From the NCBI GenBank assembly GCA_026003235.1, contig BPGW01000001.1, positions 342,224 to 406,223 on the forward strand: a DNA stretch of 64,000 nucleotides, written 5' to 3'. The translations under genes were made by a program, and so were the position numbers. The notes under the pieces are model-generated. The model made no database searches, was not told the origin of the DNA, and saw nothing but the letters and a program-made list of their open reading frames with translations. The DNA comes from Bacteroidia bacterium. GTDB taxonomy: Bacteria > Bacteroidota > Bacteroidia > SpSt-205. Below, piece after piece: positions 17,799 through 55,084 of the stretch; position 1 is the first letter of the stretch, and each line of letters opens with the position of its first letter.

Positions 17799-18812
17799 GT
17801 GACGCTCACCTTCTGGCTGACCTTGGGGGGGCTTCTGGCTGTGTTTTTTACCCTCGCTGCGTATGCGACCTTGGCTGAGCGGAAAGTCTCTGCCTACATC
17901 CAGGACCGCGTAGGTCCTAATCGTGTGGGCCCGTGGGGGCTTCTGCAGCCGCTGGCCGACGTGCTTAAGCTTGTCTTCAAGGAAACCTTCCAGCCGGCCG
18001 CTACGTATCGCTTTTTGCAGCTGCTTGCGCCTGTGCTCATGGTCACGCTGGCTATGGGTGCTGTGGCTGTGCTGCCGCTGTCCCGCCACCTGCGTCTTTT
18101 TGAGGGCAGCATAGGCGTATTGTACCTGTTGGGCGTTCTTTCGCTGACGGTGTACGGCTTGTCTCTGGCCGGCTGGGCCACCGGTAGTAAGTACGCTCTG
18201 CTGGGCGGGCTGCGAAGCGGCGCTCAGACCATCTCGTACGAACTTGCCCTGGGACTGGCTCTTTTAAGCGTGCTTCTCCTTACGGCGGTGAAGCTGCCCC
18301 AAGCCAACCCGCTCCTCCCGCAAACTATCGTGGAGGCCCAGCGTAATGGCTGGTTTGTGCTGATCAATCCCCTGGGCTTTTTGATTTATGTGGTGGCGGC
18401 CTTTGCCGAGGCAAACCGAGCCCCCTTTGACTTCGCCGAAGCCGAGCAAGAGCTGGTGGGCGGCTACCATACCGAATATTCCGCTATCCGCTTTGGGGCC
18501 TTTTTCGTAGCGGAATACATGAACCTCATCACGGCTTCGGCGCTGATCGCCACCTTCTTCTTCGGGGGCTATCTGGGACCGTTTGAGGAAAGGCTGGGCG
18601 TGCTGAATTGGCCTATCCTGTGGCAAAATGTGTGGGGGGTGGGGTGGCTTCTCCTCAAGACGCTCTTCTGGGCGTTCGTATTTATGTGGGTGCGGTGGAC
18701 CTTGCCGCGCTTTCGCTACGATCAGCTCATGCGCCTCGGCTGGAAAGTGCTTTTGCCGGCCGGGGCGCTGAACCTCTTTCTTTTGGCAGGAATATTGTTA
18801 CTTAGCTCATAG
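17799..18812 (+). CDS. nuoH: NADH-quinone oxidoreductase subunit H
   Basis: A 337-residue polytopic subunit at the base of the quinone chamber of complex I. Hallmarks: AYATLAERKVSAYIQDRVGP in the first loop, GALRSGAQ-type segment seen as GGLRSGAQTISYELALGL, the AEANRAPFDFAEAEQELVGG quinone-site loop, YHTEYSAIRFGAFFVAEY and the C-terminal WTLPRFRYDQLMRLGWKVLLP. The GTG at 17799 follows a promoter box by 4 nt; an upstream TTG at 17781 would lie inside the promoter. It stands alone, with clpC downstream instead of nuoI. Confidence 0.95.
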   Translation: MTLTFWLTLGGLLAVFFTLAAYATLAERKVSAYIQDRVGPNRVGPWGLLQPLADVLKLVFKETFQPAATYRFLQLLAPVLMVTLAMGAVAVLPLSRHLRLFEGSIGVLYLLGVLSLTVYGLSLAGWATGSKYALLGGLRSGAQTISYELALGLALLSVLLLTAVKLPQANPLLPQTIVEAQRNGWFVLINPLGFLIYVVAAFAEANRAPFDFAEAEQELVGGYHTEYSAIRFGAFFVAEYMNLITASALIATFFFGGYLGPFEERLGVLNWPILWQNVWGVGWLLLKTLFWAFVFMWVRWTLPRFRYDQLMRLGWKVLLPAGALNLFLLAGILLLSS

Positions 18813-18814
18813 CT

Positions 18815-21322
18815 ATGGAAGCCCGATTTTCCCCGCAAGCCCGCGCTGTGATTGCCCACAGCCAGGAGGAAGCCACTCGGCTGGGCAATGACTATGTGGG
18901 TGTAGAGCACATAGCCCTGGCCTTGCTGCGAGATGAACAGGAAAATAGCCTCTCTCAGCTCCTCAAAAGTCTGGGCGTGCCCCTGAAAGAAATCCGAAGA
19001 ACCCTGGAGGAGCAGGTTCGGGCCGTGCGTTCGGGGCCTCCTTCAGCTCGGCTGGCCTTCTCCAAGCAGGCCGAAAAAATTCTCAAGCAGGCTTCTGTGG
19101 AAGCGCAGCTCCTGCATGCATCGGAAGTGCAGCCCGAACACCTCCTACTGGCTATTTTGAAGCAGCCTGATTCGGTGGTCACGCAGCTCCTGGAGAAGTA
19201 CAATGTATCGTACTCGGTGGTGCACGAGGAGATAGAGACCTCGCCTATTCTGGGCATGGCTCCTACCGAGCCGTCTGAACCTTCTGAGCCGCCGTCTCGG
19301 GGTTCACGCGGTGGGGGAGGGCCTTCAGCCAGTCGGGGCTCTACCCGTTCCCGCACGCCCATCTTGGATAACTTCGGGCGGGACCTTACCCGGCTGGCCG
19401 AAGAAGGTAAGCTGGACCCTGTGATTGGCCGGGAGCGTGAAATTGAGCGCGTGGCCCAGGTTCTGAGTCGGCGCAAAAAGAACAACCCCGTGCTAATAGG
19501 CGAGCCCGGGGTAGGCAAAACCGCCATCGTGGAAGGTTTGGCGCTTCGGATCGTCCAGCGCAAAGTCAGCCGCGTCCTGTTTGGCAAGCGGATTGTGGCG
19601 CTGGATTTGACCGCTCTGGTGGCCGGCACGAAGTATCGGGGCCAGTTTGAAGAGCGCATGAAAAGCGTGCTCGCCGAACTGGAGAAAGCCCCCGAGGTGA
19701 TTCTTTTTATTGACGAGCTGCACACGATTGTGGGAGCTGGGGGAGCCTCCGGTTCGCTGGATGCGTCCAATATCTTCAAGCCGGCCTTAGCGCGGGGTGA
19801 AATCCAAGTCATCGGGGCTACTACCCTGGATGAATACCGCCAGTACATTGAAAAAGATGGGGCGCTGGAACGGCGCTTCCAGAAGATCCTCGTAGACCCT
19901 CCCACGGAAGAGGAGACCTTGCAGATCCTCTACCAGCTCAAAGACCGCTACGAAGAGCACCACCATGTCTATTACACCGACGAGGCGCTGAAAGCCTGCG
20001 TGCGCCTCAGTGGCCGCTACATCACTGATCGGCAGTTTCCTGATAAGGCGCTGGATGTTTTAGACGAAGCGGGAGCTCGCGTGTATATGGCCAACATCCA
20101 GGTGCCGCCCCGCGTGGCCGAACTGGAAGCCAAAATTGAAGAGGTCCGGGAAAAGAAAGCCCAGGTGGTTCGCAGCCAGCGCTATGAGGAAGCGGCCCAG
20201 CTGCGGGACCTGGAGAAACGCCTACAGGACCAGCTGGAAAGCGAAAAGCTGCGCTGGGAAGAAGAGCTCAAAAAGAAGCGCTTCAAGGTGGATGAGGAGG
20301 ATATTGCGGCGGTGGTGGCTTCTATGACGGGCATACCGGTGCAGAAGATCGGCGAAGGGGATATGCAGCGTCTGGCGCAGATGGCTGATGTGCTCAAAAC
20401 GCGAATCATCGGCCAGGATGAGGCGATTGATAGGGTCACTCGGGCGATTCGTCGGGCGCGCGCCGGCCTCAAAAATCCTCGCAAACCCATTGCATCATTT
20501 ATCTTTCTGGGGCAAACCGGCGTGGGTAAGACAGAGCTGGCACGAGCCCTGGCAGAATACCTCTTTGAAGGCCCCGATGCCTTGATCCGCATAGATATGT
20601 CGGAGTACATGGAGAAGTTCTCCGTGTCCCGGCTGATTGGGGCGCCGCCGGGCTATGTAGGCTACGAGGAAGGTGGCCAGCTCACCGAACGCGTGCGCCG
20701 CAAGCCCTATAGCGTGGTTCTTCTGGACGAGATTGAGAAAGCCCACCCCGATGTCTTCAACATCCTTCTCCAGGTTCTGGATGATGGGTCGCTTACCGAC
20801 AGCCTGGGGCGGCGTGTGGACTTTCGCAACACGATAATCATCATGACCTCCAATGTGGGGGCGAAAGAGCTGCGGGAGTTTGGCACGGGGGTAGGCTTTA
20901 TGACGTCGGCTCGGCGAGAGCGGACCCAGGACGCCGCCCGGCAAGTCTTGGAGGGGGCGCTGCGAAAGGTCTTCCGGCCTGAGTTCCTCAACCGCATTGA
21001 CGATGTGATTATCTTCAACCCGCTGGCTCGCGAGCATGCCCGGCAGATTGTGGACATTCAACTGGCTGAATTGGGCAAGCAGCTGGCCGAAAACGGCTGG
21101 ACGCTGGAGGTGTCCGACGCCGCCAAAGAGTTTTTGGTGGATCGGGGTTTTGACGAGCAGTTTGGGGCGCGGCCGCTCCAGCGGGCTATCCAGCGCTTCT
21201 TGGCCGATAAACTGGCCGATGCGGTCATCGCCCAGCAGGTTCAGGGGCCGGCCCACTTCCGAGCCGACCTTTCGGACGATAAGAGCACCATAGAAATTTC
21301 CCTGGCTCCGCTTGCGGTGTGA
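18815..21322 (+). CDS. clpC: ATP-dependent Clp protease ATPase subunit ClpC
   Basis: An 835-residue HSP100 unfoldase: two N-terminal Clp repeats (residues 1-145), a Ser/Gly/Pro-rich linker, AAA+ module 1 (Walker [10 protein letters not shown] about residue 229), a short UVR domain ([16 protein letters not shown]) typical of ClpC rather than ClpB, AAA+ module 2 (GQTGVGKTE about 566) and a D2-small domain. It would feed substrates to ClpP, whose gene is at 54383-55084. It starts 2 bp after nuoH and its stop overlaps the next reading frame. Confidence 0.94.
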
Positions 21323-38030: not shown

Positions 38031-38612
38031 TCAGGCGCCCCCAAAGAGCGCCGCCTCCACAAGCTGACACACCGTATGCCCCACCACCATGTGCGCCTCC
38101 TGAATGCGCGGCGTGTCCTGCGACGGCGCCCGGAAAAGGTAATCGCACTGGCCGGCCATCTTGCCCCCATGGGCCCCAGTCAAGCCCACCACCACCATCC
38201 CCAGCTGCCGAGCTGCCTGGATGGCGCGCAGCACATTGGGAGAATTGCCCGACGTGCTCATCGCCCAGAGCACATCGCCTTTTCGCCCCCAAGCCCTTAG
38301 CAGCCGAGCAAAGACTTCCTCATAGCTGTAGTCGTTGGCTACCGCCGTCAGGAACGACGTATTCACATGCAAGGCTTCGGCAGGCAGAGGAGGCCGGTCC
38401 TTGTAGTAACGGCCGGTCAGTTCGGCGGCCAGGTGCTGGGCATCGGCTGCGCTGCCTCCATTCCCGCAAAAAAACACTTTCCCCCCTTGCTGAAAGGTTC
38501 GCACCAGCAGGACAGCCACTTCCTCAATGAACCAATGCACTTCCTCGGAGGCTACCAGGGCAGCTTTGACTTGAGCGGCCTCTTGCAGGGCCTTCAGCAT
38601 CGCTTCTCGCAT
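38031..38612 (-). CDS. gmhA: Phosphoheptose isomerase (SIS domain)
   Basis: A 193-residue SIS-domain isomerase that converts sedoheptulose 7-phosphate to D-glycero-D-manno-heptose 7-phosphate for LPS inner core. Motifs: VFFCGNGGSAADAQHLAAELTG, LTAVANDYSYEEVF, WAMSTSGNSPNVL and the C-terminal EAHMVVGHTVCQLVE. ATG 38612 is chosen over TTG 38618 because a TACTTTTG box ends 3 nt upstream. It fits with the heptosyltransferase-like GT9 at 44666. Confidence 0.94.
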   Translation of the reverse strand: MREAMLKALQEAAQVKAALVASEEVHWFIEEVAVLLVRTFQQGGKVFFCGNGGSAADAQHLAAELTGRYYKDRPPLPAEALHVNTSFLTAVANDYSYEEVFARLLRAWGRKGDVLWAMSTSGNSPNVLRAIQAARQLGMVVVGLTGAHGGKMAGQCDYLFRAPSQDTPRIQEAHMVVGHTVCQLVEAALFGGA

Positions 38613-38615
38613 CCC

Positions 38616-38623
38616 CAAAAGTA
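38616..38623 (-). promoter_or_regulatory. Promoter -7 box of gmhA
   Basis: TACTTTTG on the minus strand, 3 nt before ATG 38612, the shortest spacing in the window. Confidence 0.6.
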
Positions 38624-38644
38624 TAGCGCTTCTCTCAGAAACGG

Positions 38645-38663
38645 CACTGACACTTTGTCAGTG
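38645..38663 (+). promoter_or_regulatory. Inverted repeat CACTGACA-CTT-TGTCAGTG before clpB
   Basis: Perfect 8-bp arms with a 3-bp spacer, 26 bp upstream of the clpB ATG and between divergent gmhA and clpB. It is a good candidate operator or stress-promoter element for clpB; clpB has no clear TAnnTTTG box, which would fit control by an alternative factor. It is not the CIRCE sequence. Confidence 0.55.
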
Positions 38664-38689
38664 GTGCGCCTTTTGTGGGAAGTTCCCCC

Positions 38690-41311
38690 ATGAACTGGAA
38701 CCAATTTACGGTGAGGGCGCAGGAGGCCCTCCAGCAGGCCGTGGAACTGGCTCAAAGCCATGCCCATAGCACGGTGGAAAGTGGACACTTGCTTCTGGGC
38801 CTTTTGCAAAAGGACGAGCTTGTGACGCCTTACCTCCTACAGAAAGCGGGAGCTCATCCAGCTTATTTGCGTCAGCAGGGCGAGAAGTGGCTGGCTGAGC
38901 AGCCCAAGCTGACGGGCCCTGCCGGCACCCCAGGGCTGGGCCCTTCCCTCAATGAAGCGCTTCAGAAAGCTTTAGCTCATGCCTCCCGCATGAAGGATAC
39001 CTATGCGAGTGTAGAGCACCTTTGGCTCGGGCTGGTGGAGGGCAAGGACGCTATAGCTCGCCTCCTCAAGGAGCAGGGGCTTAGCGTGGCTGTCTTGGAA
39101 AAAGCCATCCAAGAGCTTCGGGGAGGGCGCAAGGTGAGCGACCCTTCGGCCGAAGAGAAGTTCAATGCCCTTCAGCGCTATGCCATAGACCTCACGGATC
39201 TGGCGCGCAAGGGCAAGCTGGATCCCGTGATAGGTCGGGATGAGGAGATTCGCCGCACGCTCCAGATTCTGGCTCGCCGCACCAAGAATAACCCCGTCCT
39301 CATTGGCCATCCGGGCGTGGGGAAAACCGCCATCGTAGAGGGCATAGCGCACCGAATCGCCCTGGGGGATGTGCCCGAAAACCTCAAGAATAAGCGCCTT
39401 TTCTCCCTGGATATGGCGGCGCTGCTGGCAGGGGCGATGTATCGGGGTCAGTTTGAGGAGCGCCTCAAAGCCGTCGTGCAGGAAGTCGTCCAATCTGAAG
39501 GACAGATTATTCTCTTCATTGACGAGCTGCACAACCTCATTGGAGCGGGCAAAGCGGAAGGCGCCATGGATGCAGGTAACATCCTGAAGCCAGCTTTGGC
39601 CCGGGGCGAGCTGCGCGTGATTGGCGCCACCACCCTGGACGAATACCAGAAATACATTGAGAAGGACAAGGCCTTAGAGCGGCGCTTCCAGCCGGTGTAT
39701 GTGGACGAACCCTCGGTAGAAGAGACCATCTCTATCCTGAGGGGGCTCAAGGAGCGCTACGAAGTGCACCATGGGATTCGCATCACCGATGAGGCTATTG
39801 TCGCAGCAGCCGAACTCTCTCACCGCTACATTACCGACCGGTTTCTGCCTGACAAAGCGATCGATCTGGTGGATGAGGCGGCGGCGCGGTTGCGGCTGGC
39901 CATTGATTCGTTGCCTGAGCCCTTAGATGAGCTGGAGCGCAAGATCCGCCAGCTTGAGGTGGAACGCGAAGCCCTCAAGATCGAGAAAGACGAGCGCAAA
40001 GTGGCGGACCTGACGCGGCAGCTGGAGGAGCTGTACCGCAAACGGCAGGAACTGCGCACGCAGTGGGAAGCCGAAAAAGCCATCCTTCAAGAAATGCGTT
40101 CGGCGCGGGAAGAGCTGGAACAGCTTCGCCTGGAGGCTGAGTATGCTGAAAGGCAGATGGACTGGGGCAAAGCCGCTGAAATCCGCTATGGACGCATCCC
40201 AGCCGTAGAAAAGCGTATTGAGGAACTCTCGGCTCGCCTTGAGGCCCTGGCCCAAAACGGTCAAAGGCTCCTAAGAGAGGAAGTCACCGCCGAAGACATT
40301 GCTGCGGTCGTAAGCCGCTGGACGGGCATCCCCGTCTCCAAAATGCTCCAGTCAGAACGAGAACGGCTTCTGCGCTTGGAGGAAATCCTTCACCAGCGTG
40401 TGGTGGGCCAAGACGAAGCTATCCGAGCCGTAGCTAACGCTATCCGTCGTAGTCGGGCGGGTATCCAGGATCCGAATCGGCCTATCGGTTCTTTTCTCTT
40501 CATTGGGCCGACCGGCGTCGGCAAAACCGAGCTGGCCAAAGCCCTCGCCGAAGCCCTCTTCAACTCCGAGCAGGCAATGGTGCGCATTGACATGTCGGAG
40601 TATCAGGAAAAGCACGCTGTGAGCCGGCTCATAGGGGCCCCGCCTGGTTATGTGGGCTACGAGGAGGGCGGACAGCTGACGGAAGCTATTCGTCGCCGGC
40701 CCTACAGCGTCATCCTGTTGGATGAAATAGAAAAGGCCCACCCCGATGTCTTCAACATCCTCCTCCAGGTGCTGGACGATGGCCGCCTCACCGACAGCAA
40801 GGGTCGCGTGGTGAACTTCAAAAACACCCTCATCATCATGACCTCCAACATTGGCGCGCACCTGATTATGGAACGCTTGTCTGAAGCTTCGCTCACCGAC
40901 AAAGAGGCGGTTATGGAAAGCCTACGAGCTGAAATCCTGGCTCTGCTCAAACGCAGCTTCCGGCCAGAGTTCCTGAACCGCATTGATGAGATTGTGCTTT
41001 TTGAGCCGCTTACTTTGCCTCTCTTGCGCCAAATTGTGGAGCTTCAGCTCAACCAGCTCAAGGCCCGCCTGGAAGACCAGCATATTGCGCTGGCGTGGGA
41101 GCCCGAAGTGGTGGACTACCTGGCGGAAGTAGGGTACGATGTGCAGTTTGGCGCGCGACCTCTGAAGCGCGCTATCCAGCAGCTTATATTGAACCCGCTA
41201 GCCGAAAAGCTCCTAAAAGGAGAAATCACGCCCGACAAAGGGGTCTTGATTCGGCAGGTGGAGGGCGTCATCTTTTTCTCCCCCCTGTCCGTTTCGCAGG
41301 AGGCCGTCTAA
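38690..41311 (+). CDS. clpB: Disaggregase ClpB
   Basis: An 873-residue HSP100 chaperone: N-terminal Clp repeats ([19 protein letters not shown], about 1-150), AAA+ module 1 (Walker [10 protein letters not shown] about 206), a long middle coiled-coil domain (about 400-530; no UVR domain, unlike the ClpC at 18815), AAA+ module 2 (GPTGVGKTE about 606) and the D2-small domain. ClpB lacks the ClpP-binding loop and rescues aggregated protein with DnaK. ATG 38690 is preferred over an upstream in-frame GTG at 38675. A terminator follows. Confidence 0.96.
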
Positions 41312-53150: not shown

Positions 53151-54383
53151 TCAGCCGGTCGCACGCAGGGGAGCCAGCCGAGCTTGCACCTCCGCTTCGT
53201 CTATGAGCACGGGGGTGCCGGCTCTTCGGTGGAAAAGCACTTCTTCCAGGACGGTCTCCAGGAGGCTGCGCAGCGCGCGGGCCCCTGTGCCGAGACGAAC
53301 CGCTTCCCTGGCCAGCGCCCGTAGCGCCCCTTCGGTGAACTCCAGCCGGATGCCGTCCCACGAAAGCAGCTCCTGGTACTGCTTGACGAGGGCGTTGCGG
53401 GGCTCAGTCAGGATACGCAAGAGGGCCTCTTCGTCCAGGGGCTCCATCGCAGCTATCACCGGAAGCCGCCCGATAAACTCCGGTATCAGCCCAAAGCGCC
53501 GCAGGTCCTCCGGCTGCACATACGCATAGAGGTTTTCGGTAGGGGTTTCGGCGGAGGCAGAGGACCGGCGAAACCCAATCGTCTGACGAGACAGGCGCCG
53601 CGCTACGATCTTGTCCAGCCCTTCAAAGGCTCCCCCGCAGATGAAGAGAATGTTCTCCGTATTGACGGGGATAAAGCTCTGTTCCGGGTGTTTGCGGCCG
53701 CCTTTGGGGGGCACGTTGGCGACGGTGCCTTCCAGAAGTTTGAGCAAGGCTTGTTGGACGCCTTCTCCGCCTACATCGCGGGTTAGGGAGGGGTTTTCGG
53801 ATTTGCGGGCAATTTTGTCAATTTCGTCAATGTACACGATGCCGATTTGGGCGGCCTCTATGTCGTAGTCGGCGGCTTGGAGGAGGCGTACCAGCACATT
53901 TTCTACGTCTTCGCCCACGTAGCCGGCTTCGGTGAGGGTGGTGGCGTCGGCGATGGCGAAAGGAACCTGCAAAAACTGGGCGATCGTTCGGGCCAGAAGG
54001 GTCTTACCTGTGCCGGTAGGCCCAATGAGGAGGACATTGCTTTTTTCCACGCGTACGGTGGGCCCGCTGTCCTTTTCTGCGTTCAGCAGGGCAGCGATGC
54101 GCCGGTAGTGGTTGTAGACGGCGACGGCGACCTTGCGTTTGGCGGCTTCCTGGCCTACGATGTAGGCATCCAGGTAAGCTTTGATTTCGGCGGGGGAGGT
54201 TTTAGGCATTTGCCAGCCCTTGAGGCGGCGGCTGCGGCGTAGTTCTTTCTGGGCAGCTTCGTGGATATGTCCCACGCAGTCCAGGCAGATGCGTACGGGC
54301 TTGAGAGGAGACTCAATTAGGGGCAGCCCCGGTGCTGACCGCCCGCAAAAGTCACAAGCAGGGGTACGGGGTTCGGGCGGCAT
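53151..54383 (-). CDS. clpX: ATP-dependent Clp protease ATPase subunit ClpX
   Basis: A 410-residue hexameric unfoldase: N-terminal zinc finger (CDFCGRS and CLDCV), [19 protein letters not shown], Walker [27 protein letters not shown], Walker [27 protein letters not shown] (pore-2 region), and the C-terminal sensor-2 GTGARALRS. The start shares one base with the clpP stop (TAATG). Confidence 0.96.
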
Positions 54384-55084
54384 TATCGGCCGTTTTCGGA
54401 AGGGCGGCGAGGTTGAAGCACTTCGTCTACCAGACCGTACGCTTGGGCTTCATCGGCCCGCATCCAGTAATCCCGATCCGAGTCCTTCCAAATTTTTTCG
54501 TAGGGCTGGCCCGTATGGTAAGCCAGGATTTCGTACAATTCCCGCTTGATTTTTTGGATTTCCGCGTGGACGATTTCAATATCGGAAGCTTGGCCTTGTA
54601 CGCCTCCCAGGGGCTGGTGGATCATCACCCGGGCGTGGGGTAAAGCGGCGCGTTTGCCTTTTGTGCCGGCCGCCAGCAGCACCGCCGCCATAGAAGCCGC
54701 CATCCCCGTGCAGATGGTGTTCACATCGGGGCGCACATACTGCATCACATCGTAAATGCTCAAGCCGTCGTACACCGAGCCACCGGGGGAGTTGATGTAG
54801 ATGAAAATATCGCGCTTAGGGTCAGCGGACTCCAGGAAAAGAAGCTGGGCGTTGACGATATTGGCGATCTGGCCGTCTATAGGGTAGCCCAAAAAGATGA
54901 TGCGGTCCATCATCAGCCGGGAGAAAACGTCCATGACGGCGATGTTGAGCTGGCGCTCTTCAATGATGTTGGGGGTGAGGTTGTAAAAGGCGGATCGTAC
55001 CCGGGCTTCGTACTGGTCCAGCCGCAGGCTGCTCAAACCCAGGTGTCGGGTGGCGTATCGGCGAAACTCTTCTCCGAGGGTCAT
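54383..55084 (-). CDS. clpP: ATP-dependent Clp protease proteolytic subunit ClpP
   Basis: A 233-residue serine protease. Catalytic Ser in [14 protein letters not shown], His in [19 protein letters not shown], Asp in the KDSDRDYWM segment; [20 protein letters not shown] is the family signature. The ATG at 55084 overlaps the trigger factor stop (ATGA); a longer frame to 55156 would run inside that gene. N-terminal extension of about 30 residues relative to E. coli. Serves ClpX and the ClpC at 18815. Confidence 0.95.

Follow-up and report, generated by a model that had tools for sequence, protein, structure and literature searches.

Sigma54 promoters at the chaperone genes of Bacteroidota are already known as a class; the enhancer and the activator that we assign to them here, as candidates, are the new part. 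In Flavobacterium psychrophilum, sigma54 (SM4) starts of the -24/-12 type have been mapped at groESL, dnaK, grpE-dnaJ, htpG, lon and clpB (PMC9723704). As far as the main text of that paper goes, induction was by blood agar, osmotic stress, plasma and freshwater rather than by heat; clpB falls into co-expression cluster B415 and dnaK, groESL, lon and htpG into B254, the authors consider that the clusters may have distinct activators, and the activator is left open among three PF00158 proteins (PMC9723704). A 2025 survey likewise reports, in its main text, that sigma54 promoters are enriched at the groEL/ES, grpE, dnaJ/K, ibpA and Clp/Lon COGs in Bacteroidota (PMC12316311). In Myxococcus xanthus, according to the text available, HsfBA includes an NtrC-like enhancer-binding protein that directly drives the heat-shock gene lonD (PMC9109919). 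A Chlamydia heat-shock study, from its accessible part, concerns another system, with HrcA (PMC8762339). The near-palindromic PM2 motif of Bacteroides is placed at -10/-30 in the main text of PMC7366714, and neither 'RpoN' nor 'groE' occurs in the main text of that paper or of PMC12596196. A search of the open-licence literature, which covers few subscription papers, returned no named heat-shock activator, enhancer or phasing for Bacteroidota; the published texts that we drew on leave the activator and the DNA site of the chaperone sigma54 promoters open.

A palindrome and a sigma54-type promoter in front of clpB

The window, that is, the whole 64-kb stretch of DNA analysed here, contains the palindrome CACTGACA-CTT-TGTCAGTG at 38645..38663 (no strand assigned), which we read as a probable enhancer (upstream activating site). 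Its conserved 15-bp core, CTGACA-CTT-TGTCAG, occupies 38647-38661. As an earlier note on this DNA had stated, 26 bases separate the end of the palindrome from the ATG of clpB at 38690. The clpB gene (38690..41311, + strand, 873 aa plus stop), presumably the controlled gene, encodes ClpB as judged by NCBIfam TIGR03346 (1310.6 bits, cut-off 1232.1). The same note had observed that clpB is without a TAnnTTTG (housekeeping) box, and none was found on the clpB strand in 38401-38700; the box on the opposite strand (38616..38623, -) lies outside the element and belongs to a divergent gmhA-like gene, whose ATG at 38612 (-) follows it after 3 nt. Its remark that the two other Clp genes do not carry the palindrome also held, with no copy at either gene in the window; judging from their motifs, we take these to be clpC (open frame 18806-21322, +) and clpX (open frame 53151-54449, -).

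Within three mismatches, the palindrome has no second copy in the 64 kb (shuffled sequences held 0.10 copies on average, with one copy in 10 of 100). Perfect palindromes of this kind (8-bp arms, spacers of 0-10) are no rarer in the window, which has 22 (nested ones included), than in five shuffles (8-21), so the window by itself is no proof. Such counts would suit a chance palindrome; conservation, gene specificity and phasing across genomes, described below, contradict that explanation, which we consider extremely improbable. By virtue of its position and conservation, we regard the palindrome as real.

Directly behind the core begins a sigma54-type promoter, TGGTGCGCCTTTTGT (38662..38676, + strand), with TGG as the -24 element and TTGT, in place of the usual TTGC, as the -12 element. 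The sigma54 consensus is TGGCAC-N5-TTGC, with GG and GC 10 bp apart; the promoter in the window reads GG-N10-GT, in which the spacing is kept and the last base is off consensus. The same spacing was found at dnaK, clpB and groES of congeners. At sigma54 promoters 12 nt lie between the -12 element and +1, and from this distance the clpB transcript is predicted to start at 38688 on the + strand, with a leader of about 2 nt (38688..38689). A -24/-12 promoter at this place would explain why clpB has no TAnnTTTG box. Since this promoter, which the earlier note had not mentioned, abuts the palindrome, we also read the stress-specific control site of that note as a probable enhancer of a sigma54 regulon rather than as a stress operator. 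The gene for sigma54, rpoN (PF04552), is present in this assembly (E 1.3e-57) and in 10 of 11 genomes of the genus, the exception being an 83% complete genome (G008).

In dnaK and clpB of the genus the -12 element ends 12-16 nt ahead of the ATG, so their sigma54 transcripts would begin at or just before the start codon. As a separate observation on gene starts in the window, the TAnnTTTG box ends 3-8 nt before the start codon in 8 of the 11 ORFs that have one (for example near 38612 (-), 12129 (+), 24119 (+) and 30912 (+)), suggesting that leaderless or near-leaderless mRNAs may be common in the genus. The predicted clpB and dnaK transcripts match this habit.

Copies in the same genome and genus

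The earlier note had proposed a stress-specific control site and a search of the genome for copies at other stress genes. The element or a symmetric variant of it indeed precedes dnaK and groES of this genome, with further copies next to htpX and a DnaJ-like gene. Congeners have it at dnaK, groES and clpB, and a more distant relative has it at hsp20, all of which supports the proposal. We infer that chaperone genes with the element would be heat-inducible.

Across the 2.06-Mb assembly (82% complete), CTGACA-N3-TGTCAG with up to two mismatches occurs at 35 sites; the reversed control pattern gave 23. Five sites occupy promoter positions: those of clpB, dnaK (CTGCCACTTTGGCAG), groES (CTGCCATCTTGTCAG), htpX, with a divergent gene on the far side of the site, and the DnaJ-domain gene, where an ORF flanks the site on its other side too. 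The remaining 30 fall in ORFs according to a simple ORF caller, which scored even the dnaK site, 30 bp before dnaK, as lying under antisense ORFs; three of these 30 are also near a sigma54-like site, and one (L347:2545) lies 20 nt ahead of another ORF start. All sigma54 counts in this work rest on a loose, hand-made score that follows no published matrix, with a site called at 8 or more. By this measure, a sigma54-like site follows the palindrome within about 60 nt at clpB, dnaK, groES and htpX; at the DnaJ gene the order is reversed, with the sigma54-like site upstream of a palindrome that is 2 nt ahead of the ATG.

The genus was represented by 30 upstream regions (11 dnaK, 8 clpB, 11 groES). 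Left out of this set were clpB L136 and L140 (N-terminus missing), clpB L135 (no start found) and the dnaK fragment L039; L135 was included in the later line-up, with nine clpB, and in the genus set used for phasing. A sigma54-like site was present in 28 of the 30 (shuffles, 1.9), the core with up to two mismatches in 19 (shuffles, 0.12), and both together in 18 (0 in 200 shuffles). The looseness of the score can be seen from 144 control upstream regions of the genus, of which 22 reached 8; five of the 144 had the core and three had both. These three were htpX, the DnaJ gene and a clpB missed by the start pattern, and the htpX and DnaJ loci had been fetched because of their palindrome. When the promoters were lined up, a site of TGG-N10-GC/GT spacing scoring at least 8 was found at dnaK in 11/11, at groES in 11/11 and at clpB in 7/9 genomes; the two weaker clpB promoters scored 7.

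The composite TGTC-N3-33-TGGC-N7-TTGC was rejected as a search pattern, being unspecific (56 matches in 11 genomes, 28 for the reversed control). We read 50 of the 56 matches: 47 lay in ORFs, and the others were groES of G003 and two genes for apparently secreted proteins. Five further matches were clpB or groES promoters already in our set. The two intergenic composites directly before genes for apparently secreted proteins of unknown function (L208 in G006, L353 in G003) make these genes possible further sigma54 targets in the genus.

Exact copies in relatives

Of 100 genomes searched, 13 contain the exact core, compared with 3 for the reversed control. Three copies are inside ORFs (L017, L018, L025), and one (L020), although 54 nt ahead of a LemA-family gene, is covered by a short antisense ORF. 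The other nine are intergenic. They precede clpB in the window; dnaK in the congener G006, where core and spacer are as at clpB; hsp20 in G094, with a sigma54-like site 11 bp further on; secA in three species of one genus, 70-87 nt ahead of the gene (L022, L023 and L024 in G097, G061 and G015); and, in three genomes, the gene of a sigma54 activator that we call B, either alone (G050) or as part of a miaB-B operon (G046, G057). Within about 85 nt of the copies at B, miaB-B and secA, no sigma54 site reached 8, so the palindrome and sigma54 do not go together at every locus. A TAnnTTTG-like box follows the palindrome at miaB-B in G046 and G057, which suggests possible autoregulation of B from a housekeeping promoter in these two genomes.

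Conservation and helical phasing in the class

For a view of the class, we used the best 80 ClpB loci among named records; almost all carry the label Bacteroidota, and one is labelled Kuenenia. Upstream regions were analysed for 77 of these 80, for which an ATG and 200 bp upstream were required, and phasing for 79. Among the 77, the core with up to two mismatches occurred in 21 (1 of 1540 shuffled copies), a sigma54-like site in 52 (4% of shuffles) and a TGTCA or TGACA half-site in 74% (33% of shuffles). No sigma54 site scoring at least 8 was found in 26 of the 79 loci, and the nearest named relative (L051) has the palindrome at clpB without such a site. The groES upstream regions of 25 other genomes held on average 2.3 half-sites (0.44 in shuffles), and 20 of the 25 regions had a sigma54-like site (6% of shuffles). 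As a control, 203 neighbouring genes gave eight palindrome matches, every one of which was the clpB promoter viewed from another start; a sigma54-like site was present in 16 of the 203.

Of the 53 clpB loci (among the 79 of the best 80) with a sigma54-like site, 42 carry at least one core with up to three mismatches upstream of it, giving 60 core sites in total (1.8 in shuffles). Measured from the core to the -24 element, the spacings cluster at 10-12, 21-22, 31, 42-43, 50-54, 64-65, 72-74, 85 and 94-96 bp. Between 6 and 16 bp, the best period for the 60 sites is 10.5 bp (R=0.86). With one best site from each of 37 less redundant loci, R was 0.85, a value that 0 of 20,000 uniform draws reached; the redundancy filter is a crude one (ungapped identity) and relatedness is uncorrected in this comparison. 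The 21 sites at groES of other Bacteroidia (R=0.64) and the 36 of the genus set (R=0.65) agree with this, and the core at clpB in the window, at offset 0 from the -24 element, has the same phase. Exceptions out of phase are L122 at 4 bp, dnaK of G037 at 46 bp and some groES sites. Multiples of about 10.5 bp would put the palindromes on the same helical face with respect to the promoter. The element is thus a dyad-symmetric site upstream of -24 on a defined helix face, as an enhancer would be.

The phasing bears on two other explanations. One is that the palindrome is the operator of a heat-labile repressor, as CIRCE is for HrcA, which would block sigma54-polymerase until heat releases it. The core directly adjoins the -24 element at clpB (offset 0 in 5/5 genus clpB loci listed), as such an operator might, and the TAnnTTTG-like box without a sigma54 site behind the palindrome at miaB-B of G046 and G057 fits repression there. 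Most sites of other Bacteroidia, however, are 10-96 bp upstream of -24 and in phase, and a blocking operator needs neither; moreover, the palindrome is the common element beside promoters whose polymerase requires an activator, as sigma54 polymerase always does. We consider this explanation unlikely. CIRCE/HrcA itself was rejected: the CIRCE consensus is TTAGCACTC-N9-GAGTGCTAA, and a CIRCE-like site with up to three mismatches was found in only 1 of 143 loci scanned. That one, at groES of G051 (L249), is near-perfect with a single mismatch, and the G051 lineage may use HrcA at groES.

The other explanation is an RNA hairpin, either a leader structure or the terminator of an upstream operon. 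The TGTCA/TGACA repeats upstream of groES in G082, G016, G031 and G015 (L247, L251, L266 and L267) are followed by a T-run, giving a terminator-like hairpin, and in these four relatives one DNA stretch possibly does two jobs. At clpB, the predicted start is downstream of the palindrome and the copy in the window has no T-run, and the helical phasing and dispersed half-sites point to DNA; a hairpin is therefore very unlikely to be what the palindrome encodes.

A candidate activator

Two sigma54 activators were found in 10 of 11 genus genomes and one in G007. The first, A, has the architecture REC-AAA+-HTH of an NtrX/NtrC-like response regulator and lies beside a gene that we take to be frr. The second, B, is an AAA+-HTH protein without a receiver domain, encoded between presumed miaB and lptE genes (these names, like secG below, were given from sequence features). 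In this assembly B is on contig C1 around 156420-156923 (L189), outside the window.

The domains of B are those of a bacterial enhancer-binding protein: a PF00158 AAA+ domain with lid and a Fis-type HTH. Its alignment has GENGTGKE, LFLDE and GAFTSA (GSFTGA or GAFTGA in several relatives), which we take to be Walker A, Walker B and the GAFTGA-type loop. The recognition helix [SA]ERTLYRK is kept in 17/17 complete sequences aligned. B gave no Response_reg match, and scored 291.3 bits with NCBIfam TIGR02974 (PspF), below the cut-off of 443.55. By sequence, the closest proteins of known structure are AAA+ domains of the NtrC family. In the predicted model (mean pLDDT 83.6), the AAA+ domain is followed by a disordered stretch, a helix at 290-324, a second disordered stretch and the HTH at 346-386.

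The gene for B is often close to groES: in 8 of 22 neighbourhoods it is found upstream, no more than 7 kb away, and the gene order there is B-lptE-(TPR)-secG-groES, with miaB visible in six, and in G015 and G031 the coordinates put it about 3 kb from groES. It was not seen near groES in the other 14 neighbourhoods, several of which are short contigs. In G037, a reduced genome (0.5 Mb, single contig), B is the only sigma54 activator found. TGGCAN7TG has 28 matches in this genome (2 for the reversed control), which are intergenic only at dnaK, groES and one tRNA cluster, and the dnaK upstream region carries CTGCCATTTAGTCAG.

The enhancer reading could also be correct with A, or a third protein, as the activator. 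In its favour, A occurs in 10 of 11 genus genomes, and its receiver domain could serve as the input for a signal. Against it, A was not found in G037, G007, G011 or G082 (the last three 92, 66 and 86% complete), and in 4 of 6 class-level sequences (G015, G018, G031 and G061; L272, L273, L275 and L276) it ends after the AAA+ lid, the DNA-binding domain missing. The groES upstream regions of G015, G018 and G031 keep their TGTCA/TGACA repeats though A there has no HTH, and B is the only activator with a DNA-binding domain in these genomes. The C-terminus of A differs between lineages, whereas the palindrome motif is common to them, and none of the 13 exact palindromes precedes A, whereas three precede B or its operon. 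G061 yielded A alone of the two activators, and no groES. Being missing or HTH-less in several relatives, A was rejected, and we consider it quite improbable that A or a third protein is the activator. The palindromes at B, its proximity to groES, G037 with B only, the HTH-less A and the conserved helix of B make B the likelier activator, and we infer that B binds the palindrome.

Proposed mechanism

The palindrome is likely an enhancer for a sigma54-dependent activator, probably B. On the sequence side, this is carried by the shared palindrome and sigma54 promoter, the phasing, the presence of rpoN and B, and the association of B with groES and the palindrome. In the proposed course of events, sigma54-RNA polymerase would bind TGGTGCGCCTTTTGT (38662-38676) directly behind the palindrome and stay closed. 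A dimer of the Fis-type HTH of B would bind CTGACA-N3-TGTCAG on the matching helix face, and its AAA+ ring would remodel sigma54 with ATP and open the promoter, so that clpB would be switched on together with dnaK and groESL. Having no receiver, B may be restrained by another protein; since no sensor domain was recognised in B either, one could speculate that its activity under stress is set by chaperones through titration.

The position of the core at clpB is unusual for an enhancer. Sigma54 enhancers usually lie at about -80 to -150; the core in the window is centred near -34, outside this range, and the sites of the class (best 80 clpB loci) are mostly 10-54 bp before the -24 element. A core near -34 might collide with the polymerase. 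The long flexible linker of B might allow it to reach a site this close.

More broadly, and only tentatively, at a little below even odds, we suggest that Bacteroidia, perhaps the whole phylum, may run heat shock by one dedicated sigma54 circuit rather than by sigma32 or HrcA. Such a circuit would use the receiver-less B, whose gene is often a neighbour of groESL and in some genomes follows a palindrome of its own, with helix-phased CTGACA-N3-TGTCAG enhancers unusually close to the promoter, and it would persist in a reduced 0.5-Mb genome whose gene-promoter TGGCAN7TG matches are only those of dnaK and groES. The split of clpB and dnaK between clusters in F. psychrophilum, as given in the main text of PMC9723704, counts against one shared activator circuit.

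What this work provides for the chaperone sigma54 promoters is a defined motif, a rule for its spacing and a single candidate activator gene. B can be traced by the synteny miaB-B-lptE, often followed by secG-groES, and can be deleted in model species. If true, the proposal would define how a group dominant in the gut and the environment switches on its heat-shock genes, and would point to the heat-shock response as a central duty of sigma54 in Bacteroidota.

Comparison with known systems

Like CIRCE with HrcA, the element is a palindrome before chaperone genes; its sequence and spacing are different. The SM4 promoters of F. psychrophilum are, as here, -24/-12 promoters at chaperone genes of a Bacteroidota; unlike here, the main text of that study has no enhancer ('palindrom' and 'TGTCA' do not occur in it; PMC9723704). 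The regulons of the 2025 survey consist of promoters only, with no enhancer or assigned activator in the main text, where 'TGTC' and 'UAS' do not occur (PMC12316311). HsfA of M. xanthus is described, in the part of the paper available, as a response regulator with a kinase partner (PMC9109919), whereas B has no receiver domain. In this respect B resembles PspF, which also has no receiver and in which the AAA+ domain is followed by a Fis-type HTH; B differs from PspF in falling below the model cut-off and in its longer linker with the predicted helix at 290-324.
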